Part shown: positions 8,170-12,706 of the stretch, one piece after another
Position numbering within the stretch: the first letter of the stretch is position 1
Layout: every line of letters begins with the position of its first letter
From: Dictyoglomus thermophilum H-6-12
GTDB lineage: Bacteria; Dictyoglomota; Dictyoglomia; Dictyoglomales; Dictyoglomaceae
Direction: 5' to 3'
Assembly: GCF_000020965.1 (NCBI RefSeq)
Contig: NC_011297.1
Span: 372,001-436,000 of the forward strand
Length of the DNA: 64,000 nt
The notes under the pieces: generated by a model
Told to the model about the DNA's origin: nothing
The model's input: the letters and a program-made list of their open reading frames with translations, nothing else
The model's database searches: none
Made by a program: the position numbers and the translations under genes

Positions 8170-8208
8170 ATATATCGTTAAATTTTTAACAATTTGGAGG
8201 TGATTCTC

Positions 8209-8445
8209 ATGGATGTAAAGCCCAACTACACTCTTGATGTGAGAGGAGAGGTGTGCCCAGTTCCCGATGTGGAGACCAAAAGAAAGTTAAAGACAATGCA
8301 GTCTGGAGAGGTTCTTGAAGTGCTTATTGATTATCCCCTTTCAAAGGAAAGGATTCCTCAAGGAGTTAAAGAAGTAGGAGGAGAAGTTTTAGCTATTGAA
8401 GAGATTGGACCAAGTGAGTGGAGAATTTTAATTAAAAAATTATAA
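8209..8445 (+). CDS. TusA/SirA-family sulfur carrier protein (TsuB-like)
   Basis: 78 residues from the ATG at 8209, placed by GGAGGTG 8 bases upstream. It has the TusA signature near the N-terminus, Cys-Pro-x-Pro with Cys16, which carries a persulfide in this family, and the compact beta-alpha-beta-alpha-beta-beta length. It sits 22 bases before a YeeE/YedE transporter gene. In thiosulfate-uptake systems a TusA-like protein (TsuB/YeeD) accepts or processes the imported sulfur, and the pairing here points to that role. It is the first gene of a six-gene operon together with DsrE/F/H proteins, which receive sulfur from TusA in other bacteria. Confidence 0.88.
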   Translation: MDVKPNYTLDVRGEVCPVPDVETKRKLKTMQSGEVLEVLIDYPLSKERIPQGVKEVGGEVLAIEEIGPSEWRILIKKL

Positions 8446-8467
8446 ATGAAAAGGGAGGGATTTATTG

Positions 8468-9460
8468 ATGATCTGGCAAGGCTTGCTAGTTGGTATTCTT
8501 TTTGGAGTAGTTTTACAAAGATCAAGAATGTGTTTTAACTCTGCTATAAGAGATATTAAATTCAATAAGGATAATTACCTTGTAAAGATGGCAGCTGTGG
8601 CAATACTTATAGAAACCCTTGGTTTTCATCTTGTAGCATCTTTAGGATGGATAAAACTTAATCCTCTTCCTTTTATTCCATTAGCCCAAATTATAGGTGG
8701 ATTTTTGTTTGGAATGGGCATGGTTCTTGCAGGTGGATGTGCTAGTGGTGTAACTTACAGAATTGGCGAAGGTTACATCACAGCTATTTTGGCTGGACTT
8801 TTTTATGGAATTACTGCTTCGGCAGTAAGAGGTGGAGTTTTAAACTTTGTTAATTCATGGTTTGGGTCTCCAATTACTGTAACTATGCAAGATCCTGGTA
8901 TATATAATGCAGTAGAGGGTAAAGTTAGCCCAACTATTGCAAATGTTTTAGGCATAAATCCATGGATTGTAGCTATTGTTTTTGCAGTGCTTCTTGCTAT
9001 TTATATTTGGGGTACAAAGACTACTGAGAGACAAGTTTCAGGGTTAAATTGGCTTACAGGTGGAGTTGCTCTTGGTATTGTAGGTATTCTTGGATATCTA
9101 TCTCAAAAGAGTTATGCTCTTGGAATTACTGGTGGATGGGTAAATCTATTAAGAGGTACAGTTTCAGGAGTAGCATATAATTGGATTGGAATGGAAGTCC
9201 TTGGGATAATAATAGGAGCCTTTGTATCTGCTCTTATATCTAAGGAATTCAAATTAAGAGTTCCAAAGGATCCTAAGACATATTTGCAAGTTATTCTTGG
9301 AGGAATATTGATGGGGTTTGGTGCAGGTGTTGCTGCGGGTTGTAATATAGGCCATATATTATCTGGTCTTCCTCACCTTGCTTTAAGTTCTATTCTTGCT
9401 ACTATTTTCTTTGTGCTTGGCAACTGGTTCATGTTTTGGTATTTATATGCAAGAAAGTAG
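8468..9460 (+). CDS. YeeE/YedE-family thiosulfate transporter
   Basis: 330 residues with many hydrophobic helices in two inverted halves. The start is the ATG at 8468; AAGGGAGGG lies just upstream. Three cysteines stand where the structurally characterised transporter TsuA from Spirochaeta thermophila has its essential ones: Cys22 (RMCFN), Cys91 (GGCASG) and Cys292 (AGCNIG). In that protein thiosulfate is relayed past these cysteines across the membrane. The gene lies between a TusA carrier and DsrE proteins, so thiosulfate import into a cytoplasmic sulfur relay is the likely role. Other YeeE/YedE members may carry different sulfur or selenium species. Confidence 0.85.
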   Translation: MIWQGLLVGILFGVVLQRSRMCFNSAIRDIKFNKDNYLVKMAAVAILIETLGFHLVASLGWIKLNPLPFIPLAQIIGGFLFGMGMVLAGGCASGVTYRIGEGYITAILAGLFYGITASAVRGGVLNFVNSWFGSPITVTMQDPGIYNAVEGKVSPTIANVLGINPWIVAIVFAVLLAIYIWGTKTTERQVSGLNWLTGGVALGIVGILGYLSQKSYALGITGGWVNLLRGTVSGVAYNWIGMEVLGIIIGAFVSALISKEFKLRVPKDPKTYLQVILGGILMGFGAGVAAGCNIGHILSGLPHLALSSILATIFFVLGNWFMFWYLYARK

Positions 9461-9472
9461 GAGGGAAAAAGA

Positions 9473-9826
9473 ATGCATATTGCTATTCAAGTAAATGTTC
9501 CACCATATACTTATGAAGATTTAGATACGGCTATACACCTTGCAGAGGCAGCACTAAAGAGAGGGCATAAGGTTTCTATCTTTCTATTTGCTGATTCTGT
9601 GCTTTCTGTAAATTCTAAAGTAAAACCTTTAAGAGTTGATAGAAACATTCCTTTAAAGATGAAGGAACTGTGTGAAAAGGGAGTTGAAGTACACATTTGT
9701 GGACTTTGTGCAGAGTACAGGGGAATCAACTCTGAAAATACAGTGGAGGGCCCCAAATTTTCTGGGGTACCTGAAATGGCATCTTTGATATTTAACGCAG
9801 ATAGATATATGAACTTAATGCCGTAA
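9473..9826 (+). CDS. dsrE: DsrE-family sulfurtransferase subunit
   Basis: 117 residues, a Rossmann-like DsrE/TusD fold. The motif C-G-x-C-x-x-x-R-G at residues 76-84 carries the conserved active cysteine that receives persulfide sulfur in DsrE and TusD. It is followed within 14-15 bases by the DsrF-like and DsrH-like genes, so a DsrEFH (TusBCD-like) hexamer is plausible. GGAGGG precedes the ATG. In sulfur oxidisers DsrEFH passes sulfur to the dissimilatory pathway, and in enterics TusBCD serves tRNA thiolation; which applies here is unknown. Confidence 0.85.
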   Translation: MHIAIQVNVPPYTYEDLDTAIHLAEAALKRGHKVSIFLFADSVLSVNSKVKPLRVDRNIPLKMKELCEKGVEVHICGLCAEYRGINSENTVEGPKFSGVPEMASLIFNADRYMNLMP

Positions 9827-9840
9827 GGGAGGAAAATTTA

Positions 9841-10200
9841 ATGAAAAAAGTGCTCTTTGTAGTTTATCAGAGCCCTGCTGGATCAATATGGGTAAATGAG
9901 GCGTTAAGAAGCGCTTTTGGTATGTATGGAGAAGATCTTGAGCCTTCCATTCTTTTTATGGGAGATGCTGTGGTAGCAGTAAATAAGAATACCCATCCTG
10001 AAAATTTAGGTTGTCTCTCTCTAAGCATGTCCTTTAAATATCTTGAAAGATACGGGACACCAATTTATGTGGTAAAAGAGGATTTAGAAAAGAGAAAAAT
10101 AAAAGAAGAGGATATTGAGCCAACGTGGAAAGCAAAAATTATATCAAATAATGAGCTTTCTGAGTTTATTCATTCCTTTGACAGAGTAATATTTTTCTAA
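9841..10200 (+). CDS. dsrF: DsrF-like subunit of a DsrEFH/TusBCD complex
   Basis: 119 residues with the DsrE-superfamily pattern: an N-terminal strand MKKVLFVVYQSP, a helix with bulky aromatic residues, and the strand FMGDAVVAVNK typical of DsrF/TusC. It lacks the CGxC motif; its one cysteine (GCLSLS) is not in the catalytic position, as expected for DsrF/TusC, which is structural. It sits between the DsrE-like and DsrH-like genes, with a good GGAGG site before the ATG. Its C-terminal ~30 residues are charged and less conserved. Confidence 0.8.
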   Translation: MKKVLFVVYQSPAGSIWVNEALRSAFGMYGEDLEPSILFMGDAVVAVNKNTHPENLGCLSLSMSFKYLERYGTPIYVVKEDLEKRKIKEEDIEPTWKAKIISNNELSEFIHSFDRVIFF

Positions 10201-10215
10201 AAGAGGTGAATGAAG

Positions 10216-10494
10216 ATGGCATTAATAATTGTAAAGAAAAGTCCAACAGAAGATATTAGTAGAAGAATGATAGATCTTGCTATGGAGGGAGACACTATTC
10301 TCTTTGTTCAGGATGGGGTTTTACATGCCATAGATGAGAATACTAAAAACTTAGTTAAGAATGGAGTTTCGGTTTTTGTTTTAAAAGAAGATTTAGAAGC
10401 AAGAGGATATTCGGAAAGTTTGAGTCTTTTTTCTTGTGTAGATTATGAAGGATGGGTAGAATTAATAGAAAAGAATGAAAAAATAATTTCGTAG
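10216..10494 (+). CDS. dsrH: DsrH/TusB-like subunit
   Basis: About 92 residues. I take the second ATG (10216) because AAGAGGTG ends seven bases before it; the ATG at 10210 is too close to that site. The pattern LIIVKKSP...DTILFVQDGVLHAI is characteristic of DsrH/TusB, the small third subunit of the heterohexamer. A cysteine near the C-terminus (SCVDYEGW) is available, but its role is unknown. The gene completes the E-F-H order and is followed 14 bases later by the flavoprotein gene. Confidence 0.8.
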   Translation: MALIIVKKSPTEDISRRMIDLAMEGDTILFVQDGVLHAIDENTKNLVKNGVSVFVLKEDLEARGYSESLSLFSCVDYEGWVELIEKNEKIIS

Positions 10495-10508
10495 GAGGAT
10501 CAGTAAAA

Positions 10509-11900
10509 ATGGAAAGGTTTGACGTGATATTTTTGGGAGCAGGATCTGGAGGTTACGTAGGGGCTATAAGAGCAGCAGATTTAGGGAAGAAAGTATGTAT
10601 AATTGAGGCAAGGGAGCTTGGTGGTACTTGTTTAAATCGAGGATGTATTCCTACAAAAGCTCTTTTAAAGAGTGCAGAGGTATTTCACACAGTAAAGGAT
10701 GCAAAAACTTTTGGAATAAATGTTGATGCTTATTCTTTTGACGTAAATGGTATCTATTCTTGGAAAGAAAATGTAGTGAAAAAGTTAGTATCAGGAGTAG
10801 AGTATTTATTGAAGTCAAGAAAAGTAGTAATAAAGAAGGGAAGAGGAAGAATTATTGATAATGAAACAATAGAGGTTGAAACCCCAGAAGGGAAAGAGAT
10901 AGTTCAAGGGGATAATATTGTTATCGCTACAGGTTCTGAGCCAGCTATGATTCCCACATTTAAGATCGATGGAAAGAATGTATTAACCTCTGATGATGCT
11001 TTGAATTTAAGAGAAATTCCCAAAGACATAGTAATTATAGGAGCGGGAGCCATTGGTATTGAGTTTGCAACTTTTTATAGCACCTTTGGGACAAAGGTTA
11101 CTATTGTTGAAATGATGCCTCAAGTTGTGCCAACTTTAAAGGATAAGAAGGTAGCAAGTTATCTTCAAAGAATATTGAATAAAAAAGGCATTGAGGTAAA
11201 AGTGGGAGCAAAGATAGAAAGTGTAGAAGTAAAGGATGGAAAAGTGTACTCTACCTTGTCTACTGGAGAAGTTTTAGAAAGTGAAAAGGTTTTAGTCTCT
11301 ATAGGAAGAAAATTGAACTCCGACAATATAGGGCTTGAAAATATAGGTGTAAATGTGGATAGAGGAAGAATAGTAGTAGATGAGTATCTCAGAACAAATG
11401 TTAAGAATGTATATGCTATAGGAGATGTGATAGGAGGGCTATTACTTGCTCATAAAGCTATGAAGGAAGGAGAAGTGGTAGCGGAAATCATTGCAGGTGA
11501 GAATAAAAAGATGGATTATAGAGTAGTTCCATGGGCTATATTCTCATCTCCAGAGATTGCTGCTTGTGGTCTTACTGAAGAAGAAGCAAAAGAGCAAGGT
11601 ATAGAAGTAGTAACGGGAGAGTTCCCATTCTCTGCTAATGGTAAGGCTGTATCAATGAATGCTACTGATGGTTTTGTAAAGGTAGTTGCTAAGAAAGAGG
11701 ATAAGGTAATAATAGGTGCACAGATTATAGGTCCGGAGGCATCAGTTATGATTGCTGAACTTGCCCTTGCCATACAAAATAATTTAACTTTGGATGATGT
11801 AGCAGATACTGTTCATACCCATCCTACACTACCAGAGGCTGTAATGGAAGCTGTGAAAGTACCTCTTGGAAGCGTAGTACATATTTACCTAAGAAGATAG
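10509..11900 (+). CDS. lpd: Dihydrolipoamide dehydrogenase-type flavoprotein disulfide oxidoreductase
   Basis: 463 residues with complete family architecture: FAD motif GAGSGGYVGA at the N-terminus, redox disulfide Cys41/Cys46 (GGTCLNRGC), NAD motif GAGAIGIEFATF, the second FAD motif AIGDV, and a C-terminal dimer domain with the His438-Glu443 dyad (HTHPTLPE). All residues needed for NADH:disulfide exchange are present. No E1/E2 2-oxoacid dehydrogenase genes are nearby; instead it ends the TusA-TsuA-DsrEFH operon. By inference it may reduce a lipoyl-bound or protein persulfide/disulfide in sulfur handling rather than serve pyruvate dehydrogenase. Confidence 0.9.
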   Translation: MERFDVIFLGAGSGGYVGAIRAADLGKKVCIIEARELGGTCLNRGCIPTKALLKSAEVFHTVKDAKTFGINVDAYSFDVNGIYSWKENVVKKLVSGVEYLLKSRKVVIKKGRGRIIDNETIEVETPEGKEIVQGDNIVIATGSEPAMIPTFKIDGKNVLTSDDALNLREIPKDIVIIGAGAIGIEFATFYSTFGTKVTIVEMMPQVVPTLKDKKVASYLQRILNKKGIEVKVGAKIESVEVKDGKVYSTLSTGEVLESEKVLVSIGRKLNSDNIGLENIGVNVDRGRIVVDEYLRTNVKNVYAIGDVIGGLLLAHKAMKEGEVVAEIIAGENKKMDYRVVPWAIFSSPEIAACGLTEEEAKEQGIEVVTGEFPFSANGKAVSMNATDGFVKVVAKKEDKVIIGAQIIGPEASVMIAELALAIQNNLTLDDVADTVHTHPTLPEAVMEAVKVPLGSVVHIYLRR

Positions 11901-11914
11901 TTTAGAAAAATTTT

Positions 11915-11985
11915 TTTCGGACCCCTTGACAAATTTTAAAACTATGTTAAAATTATAATTGCCACAGGCATCAAGGGGTCCGAAA
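11915..11985. repeat. 15-bp perfect inverted repeat flanking a promoter
   Basis: The arm TTTCGGACCCCTTGA (11915-11929) and its exact reverse complement (11971-11985) are separated by 41 bases. The left arm overlaps the -35 box of the RNA promoter; the right arm lies inside the RNA's first stem-loop. A transcript reading through from lpd would contain both arms, but one started at the internal promoter would contain only the right arm. Confidence 0.8.
11926..11953 (+). promoter_or_regulatory. Promoter of the structured RNA
   Basis: A consensus TTGACA at 11926-11931, 16 bases, then TAAAAT at 11948-11953. Transcription would begin near 11960, exactly where the closing stem of the RNA starts. 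Confidence 0.65.
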
Positions 11986-12203
11986 GGCTCCCTGATGTGC
12001 CTGACTGGGACTGAGTAAGTCTCAGGGGCCAAGGAAAGGTAAGGAGTAAAATCCTTACTAAGTACTTGGAGGCCAGAAGGTAACAGGGGTATTGGAAAAG
12101 CCCGGTACCTCTGTGAAATCTGGTAAAACCCTGGGATGAGAGGTCTCGGGAGGGTGCAAGGGAGAAGCTGAGTAGGGTCCGTTGAGCCTGTGGCACCTTT
12201 TTT
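11961..12203 (+). ncRNA. Structured RNA of unidentified family (standalone RNA or cis-regulatory leader)
   Basis: About 240 bases, visibly richer in G+C than the surroundings, with no convincing reading frame. The ends pair perfectly: GCCACAGGC (11961-11969) with GCCTGTGGC (12186-12194), followed by ACC and six T. Internal stems include catca/tgatg (11969-11973 with 11993-11997), ctgag/ctcag (12011-12025), a perfect 7-bp hairpin gtaagga/tccttac (12039-12058) inside a ggcc/ggcc arm, and a 9-bp stem at 12083-12114. A consensus promoter lies just upstream. The HD-domain gene starts 18 bases after the T-run, so it may control that gene by termination, or be an independent RNA. It lacks the marks I know for RNase P, SRP, tmRNA, T-box, cobalamin or ydaO RNAs. 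A rare motif named Dictyoglomi-1 has been described from this phylum; I cannot confirm identity. Confidence 0.75.
12186..12203 (+). terminator. Terminator at the 3' end of the structured RNA
   Basis: The 3' strand of the closing stem (GCCTGTGGC) is followed by ACC and TTTTTT. The stem partner is 220 bases upstream, so termination depends on the whole RNA folding. Confidence 0.55.
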
Positions 12204-12220: not shown

Positions 12221-12706
12221 ATGGTAATCGAAGATATATATTATGACTTAGTGAATTATTTTGGAAAAGATGTAAAAAGGATAAATCACGCTACTAAAGT
12301 TTGGGTTTTTGCGAGAATTATAGGGAAAAGAGAAGCCTTAAATGAAGAGACTCAGCTAATACTTGAAATTTCTGCAATACTTCATGACATTGGTATAAAG
12401 GTTTGTGAGGAAAGATATGGTTCTACAGCAGGAAATTTACAAGAACTTGAAGGGCCTAAAGAAGCGATTAAAATTCTTGAGAAATATCCCTTAGACAATA
12501 GGATATTAGAAAGAGTGCTATTTCTCATAGGAAATCATCATTCCTATGAGAAGATTGATAATATAGATTTTCAAATTCTTGTGGAAGCAGATTTTCTTGT
12601 AAATATCTTTGAAGATAATATAGATAAAAGTACTGTCGAGTATATAAAAGAAAAGTATTTTAAGACTGAGACAGGGAAGTATTTAATGAATATAATGTAT
12701 GGTTAA
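12221..12706 (+). CDS. HD-domain phosphohydrolase
   Basis: 161 residues from the ATG at 12221, placed by GGGAGGAAAGGG. The HD-superfamily metal-binding pattern is present: His in RINHATKV, the His-Asp pair in AILHDIG, paired His in GNHHSYE and Asp in EADFL. Members cleave phosphomonoesters or phosphodiesters of nucleotides and related compounds; this short single-domain form resembles the generic PF01966 hydrolases, so the substrate is unknown. The structured RNA directly upstream may regulate it. Its last bases overlap the start of the next membrane-protein gene. Confidence 0.85.
   Translation: MVIEDIYYDLVNYFGKDVKRINHATKVWVFARIIGKREALNEETQLILEISAILHDIGIKVCEERYGSTAGNLQELEGPKEAIKILEKYPLDNRILERVLFLIGNHHSYEKIDNIDFQILVEADFLVNIFEDNIDKSTVEYIKEKYFKTETGKYLMNIMYG

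Follow-up and report, generated by a model that had tools for sequence, protein, structure and literature searches.

Dictyoglomi-1 is an RNA family that was reportedly first described from four examples, said to come from two species. It was published in 2010 with the rating of a probable RNA and with both 'cis-reg' and 'switch' entered as '?', and the text of that paper places it among the non-coding RNAs (Weinberg et al. 2010, PMC2864571). Our search of the literature on its expression and function returned nothing beyond this description. Several better-known RNAs share parts of its architecture. 6S RNA (RF00013), like Dictyoglomi-1, is a stand-alone RNA that forms a long rod with paired ends. 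In Y RNAs the closing stem binds the protein Ro, and a near-invariant closing stem around a variable interior is common to Y RNAs and Dictyoglomi-1. Attenuators, leaders built on an antiterminator and a terminator, resemble a switch that we predict for the copy of Dictyoglomi-1 described here. This copy lies in a 64-kb stretch of Dictyoglomus thermophilum DNA, the whole of which is called the window below.

Identity and fold of the RNA

An earlier note, written from the letters alone, had described a large structured RNA outside the common bacterial RNA classes, possibly Dictyoglomi-1 and, if not, a new RNA. A cmscan search with the Rfam covariance models matched positions 11960-12195 of the plus strand to Dictyoglomi-1 (RF01703) over the full model (1-236) with 257.6 bits, against an Rfam cut-off of 150 bits. 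RF01703 was the sole Rfam family above its cut-off, and the other matches of this stretch, taken up to an E-value of 10, were weak and to unrelated families. The stretch is copy A of the Dictyoglomi-1 RNA, a family already known, from which it differs in nothing; the guess was correct and the option of a new RNA does not apply. Since copy A may itself sit in the family seed, given the four examples reportedly used, its match to Rfam is not independent evidence.

The predicted minimum free energy of copy A is -127.9 kcal/mol, compared to -79.8 +/- 4.7 kcal/mol for dinucleotide shuffles (z = -10.2), and the other copies that we folded gave z values of -4.8 to -11.3. The GC enrichment seen earlier is real, at 53.8% compared to 33.6% for the window, and every other 236-nt stretch of the window stays below 52%. 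The parts of the RNA are as follows.

11960-12195, plus strand: Dictyoglomi-1 RNA, copy A
11960-11981, plus strand: 5' strand of the closing helix P1, TGCCACAGGCATCAAGGGGTCC, near-invariant among copies
12175-12195, plus strand: 3' strand of P1, GGGTCCGTTGAGCCTGTGGCA, near-invariant among copies
11981-11986, plus strand: internal loop 1, 5' side CGAAAG, partner UGAGUAG (12169-12175), putative bulged-G (S-turn) type
12012-12019, plus strand: internal loop 2, 5' side UGAGUAAG, partner UGAGAG (12137-12142), putative bulged-G type, retained in the short variant
12033-12038, plus strand: internal loop 3, 5' side GGAAAG, partner UAAGUAC (12059-12065), putative bulged-G type
12077-12083, plus strand: internal loop 4, 5' side AAGGUAA, partner UGAAAU (12114-12119), putative bulged-G type
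12027-12129, plus strand: three-way junction bearing two hairpin arms, in whose place the G004 variant has one arm

The perfect 9-bp stem joining the two ends (GCCACAGGC, 11961-11969, with GCCTGTGGC, 12186-12194) is present as first noted, and so are the internal stems, which appear both in the predicted folds and in the alignment of copies. P1 proved longer than this stem: the 9 bp are followed by a bulged A, 4 bp, a G.G mismatch and 6 bp (GGGUCC/GGGUCC), giving 19 bp in all and about 43 nt. Its innermost 6 bp hold a tandem G.U (GGUC/CUGG), which the thermodynamic literature describes as a stabilizing context for such pairs. An extra U-A pair (11960/12195) lies outside the 9-bp stem. Of the bounds first proposed for the RNA (11961-12203), the T6 end at 12203 stands, the RNA itself is better placed at 11960-12195, and the transcript probably ends near 12203.

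In most copies, each of the four internal loops carries an AGUA-like strand opposite a GAA-like one, as is typical of bulged-G (sarcin-ricin type) motifs, a class assigned here from sequence pattern alone. Almost every two-armed copy retains loops 2, 3 and 4; loop 1 is altered in G001 and lost in G006, and only loop 2 is recognizable in G004. Both G006 copies lack their first five bases, for which TGCCA was supplied in this comparison from contig C37 of that genome.

Because 6S RNA shares the long rod and the paired ends, we considered whether Dictyoglomi-1 could be another RNA of the 6S kind, one that sequesters RNA polymerase, with UUGA/UCAA of P1 acting as a -35-like duplex. The conserved UUGA duplex and a constitutive-looking promoter would fit such a function, but the predicted fold of copy A is without the large single-stranded central bubble, no 6S family was matched in Rfam even at E-values up to 10, and the genome holds a separate 6S candidate at 872434, so that we regard this explanation as improbable. 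A divergent 6S RNA was rejected for the lack of a sequence-structure match and for the separate candidate. The latter (G000:C1:872434-872607; L012:1501-1674) is likely the true 6S RNA of D. thermophilum; it scores 39.1 bits against a cut-off of 46.4, has a 6S-like fold and is followed by a T-tract. SRP RNA, RNase P RNA and tmRNA were likewise rejected as identities of copy A, all three being found above cut-off elsewhere in the genome.

Distribution and conservation

Each of the seven phylum genomes examined has the closing-helix sequence. There are two copies in each of D. thermophilum (G000), G003 and G004, and at least two in G006, as seen from two contig ends with different 3' flanks and a third contig with a 5' part. 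The copy of G002 ends at a contig edge, which is compatible with a second copy there. Matches in G001 (171.9 bits) and G005 (171.4 bits) exceed the RF01703 cut-off and are independent of the two species from which the family is said to have been described. The two G004 copies are a short variant of 181 nt (L010:264-444, and L006:1501-1681 on the minus strand) that falls below the Rfam cut-off, with 61-62 bits and an E-value of about 1e-12; they have one arm and retain P1 and the position of the promoter. When an 18-letter P1 pattern was searched in about 85,000 genomes, no member was found outside Dictyoglomota, to which the family is confined. Pattern matches in Cupriavidus, Sinomonas and Desulfomonile and in one viral contig were rejected, as the remainder of the RNA is absent from them.

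The earlier note had proposed aligning homologous Dictyoglomus regions as a check for covariation. Two-sided changes occur in 19 pairs, all of them in the interior helices, compared to a mean of 8.9 such pairs in shuffled alignments (none of 500 shuffles reached 19) and to 1-4 pairs in slid-alignment controls. The sample comes from a single phylum, with seven genomes, and the covariation draws on about six distinct lineages of copies. Standard pairs fill 96.9% of the pair cells, a figure flattered by deriving the structure from the same alignment; the number of pairs with two-sided changes is a more reliable guide to covariation. P1 behaves differently: of its 19 pairs, 16 are the same in all eight aligned copies, and two-sided changes do not occur in any. 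Identity between copies is 90.7-100% in P1 compared to 43.4-88.5% in the interior, excluding the two near-identical G004 copies, and P1 is retained even in G004, where the interior is different. That this sequence stays fixed while the remainder of the RNA varies or is exchanged suggests recognition of the helix itself, most simply by a protein. The invariance could partly be accounted for without a protein, by a triple duty of P1 as the first stretch to be transcribed, as a stem of the fold and as the terminator. By analogy with Y RNAs we searched for a TROVE (Ro) protein, which was not found in any of the seven phylum genomes, and Ro was rejected as the partner. As for an antisense target of the 5' strand of P1, the genome has no other site with two or fewer mismatches over 18 nt.

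Two copies per genome in differing places could also point to a repeat-like or mobile RNA element with no function for the host. Yet copy number is low and stable, copies A and B are orthologous in two species, the RNA is present in all seven genomes with covariation, and no phage or plasmid match was found, so that an origin from either was rejected; a mobile element is to our mind the most improbable explanation of those considered.

Promoter, 3' end and neighboring genes

The following elements flank the RNA.

11926-11931, plus strand: -35 element TTGACA; 8 copies have TTGAC(A), and both G004 copies TTGATT, at a fixed distance to the RNA start
11945-11953, plus strand: extended -10 element (TGT TAAAAT); all 10 copies compared have TGn and a -10 in this position
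12198-12203, plus strand: T6 tract, putative terminator together with P1
12221-12706, plus strand: HD-domain gene, start ATG (Pfam HD, 1.8e-6)
L018:6868-6972 (G003): probable HD gene remnant, a weak tblastn match

The consensus promoter reported before is present: in copy A, TTGACA and TAAAAT (11948-11953, with the TG extension) are separated by a 16-nt spacer and match 11 of 12 consensus positions. The promoter scan found one such match, compared to 0.6 expected in shuffles. The TATAAT at 11954-11959 was ruled out as the -10 element, since it is too near the RNA start. Upstream regions of 10 copies align without gaps, with a TTGAC-type -35, 16 nt, and TGn followed by TAAAAT or TATAAT, and in each the RNA starts 6 nt past the -10. 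In the D. thermophilum genome the full promoter pattern occurs only at the two RNA copies. On the other side, the T6 tail is in place, and a T-tract follows P1 after 2-5 nt in all nine copies whose 3' end is present. This distance is looser than in a textbook terminator and speaks somewhat against termination at P1; our terminator scan had no entry for P1 and U6, since it permits short loops only. Because the promoter lies at a fixed distance and the T-tract follows P1 in these copies, the Dictyoglomi-1 RNA looks like a transcription unit ended by its own P1-U-tract terminator, and the earlier view that it has its own promoter and terminator-like end is supported at this level.

The HD-domain gene starts just downstream, as noted before, at a gap from the T-tract of 17 nt and not 18. 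With P1-U6 immediately before this gene, the RNA might be a riboswitch or other cis-regulatory leader, in which ligand- or protein-dependent folding sets termination ahead of the HD gene, and the 2010 paper kept both 'cis-reg' and 'switch' at '?' (PMC2864571). A leader would be expected to keep constant company with one downstream gene or pathway, which we did not find among the copies compared: neighboring genes are unrelated between loci, and copy B and the copies of other genomes precede unrelated genes. The G003 counterpart of copy A is the most telling. Gene order there is the same, with lpd upstream and the membrane protein of window position 12699 downstream, and the only tblastn match to the HD gene within 13 kb covers 38 residues (47% identity, E = 6e-4); no full-length ortholog was found in the other genomes. 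Since the RNA, promoter and T-tract are intact in G003, where no more than a probable remnant of the HD gene is left, Dictyoglomi-1 is not a leader of this gene. Moreover, no part of the RNA varies less than P1, and folding of the copy A RNA by itself predicts no competing structure. These comparisons largely settle that the RNA is untied to the neighboring HD gene. They count against the riboswitch-like leader that the earlier note had considered, now a very improbable reading, and favor its alternative of a free RNA.

An inverted repeat across the promoter of copy A

Copy A has a further feature, a perfect 15-bp inverted repeat that spans the promoter and is shared with G003 and absent from the other genomes.

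8194-11900, plus strand: gene row of TusA, sulfur transporter, DsrE, DsrE, DsrH and dihydrolipoyl dehydrogenase, an apparent sulfur-handling operon
11915-11929, plus strand: left arm, TTTCGGACCCCTTGA, which shares part of the -35 and is the predicted partner of the P1 5' strand in read-through transcripts
11971-11985, plus strand: right arm, TCAAGGGGTCCGAAA, mostly within P1

The sequence TCAAGGGGTCC is confined to both RNA copies and the left arm of the repeat. A transcript that starts at 11960 is without the left arm, and read-through from the upstream genes, for which the 8194-11900 row is the likely source, includes it. No terminator is evident between the last stop codon of that row and the RNA gene. 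The predicted probability of the closing 9-bp pairing at 37 C is 0.999 in the RNA's own transcript compared to 0.02-0.06 in read-through transcripts, in both species. Shuffling the left arm restored P1 in 100 of 100 cases, and of 296 random 60-nt leaders only one brought P1 below 0.5. The chance of the arm beyond TTGA arising by composition is about 2e-8.

These predictions raise the possibility that copy A, besides yielding a trans-acting RNA, is a gate in the operon whose state depends on the promoter of origin. Transcripts from its own promoter would form P1, stop at U6 and make the functional RNA; in transcripts from upstream, pairing of the left arm to the 5' strand of P1 would remove the terminator, and polymerase would reach the downstream genes. 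In an attenuator the choice depends on a ligand sensed by the leader, whereas here it would depend on where transcription began. The preservation of the perfect repeat in G003, the predicted loss of P1 in both species and the arm controls all favor such a gate. Against it, it concerns one locus in two closely related species, the 10-bp version of the repeat at copy B is not predicted to disrupt P1 (the other copies tested were likewise unaffected), and the short CTTGA/TCAAG match could have given rise to the repeat through template switching. The predicted effect is also weaker at 70 C, with a P1 probability in read-through transcripts of 0.08-0.25 (0.245 in D. thermophilum). We therefore consider the gate rather unlikely, while it would be compatible with a free-standing RNA. 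The folding model suggests that the terminator of the RNA fails in read-through transcripts, which in any case would not yield a correctly closed RNA.

Discussion

Our preferred explanation is that Dictyoglomi-1 is a free-standing RNA that acts in trans, not as a leader, and has P1 as its recognition handle. A non-coding RNA of about 236 nt would be made constitutively from its own sigma-70-type extended -10 promoter and fold into a long rod consisting of P1, a stem broken by putative bulged-G-type loops, and a three-way junction from which two arms extend. With U6 behind it, P1 would double as the terminator hairpin of the transcript. The interior may be a rigid, replaceable scaffold, and the near-invariant P1, with its bulged A, G.G mismatch and GGUC/CUGG tandem wobble, may be recognized by a conserved putative partner, probably a protein. 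Taken as a whole, we think this account probably correct, with considerable room for doubt; the role of P1 as a recognition handle, taken alone, is more tentative, and we put it at somewhat under an even chance.

To the known family, the present analysis adds an apparent promoter and end of its own, its presence in each of the seven phylum genomes, the short single-arm variant of G004, the contrast of P1 with the interior, and the repeat that spans the promoter of copy A. If the gate is true, this repeat would be a built-in bypass, an unusual way to stop the terminator of an RNA gene from blocking the operon in which it lies. Dictyoglomi-1 has stood in Rfam without a function, marked as possibly cis-regulatory; in this phylum of thermophiles, the near-invariant closing helix found in every genome examined would give the search for its function a focus.
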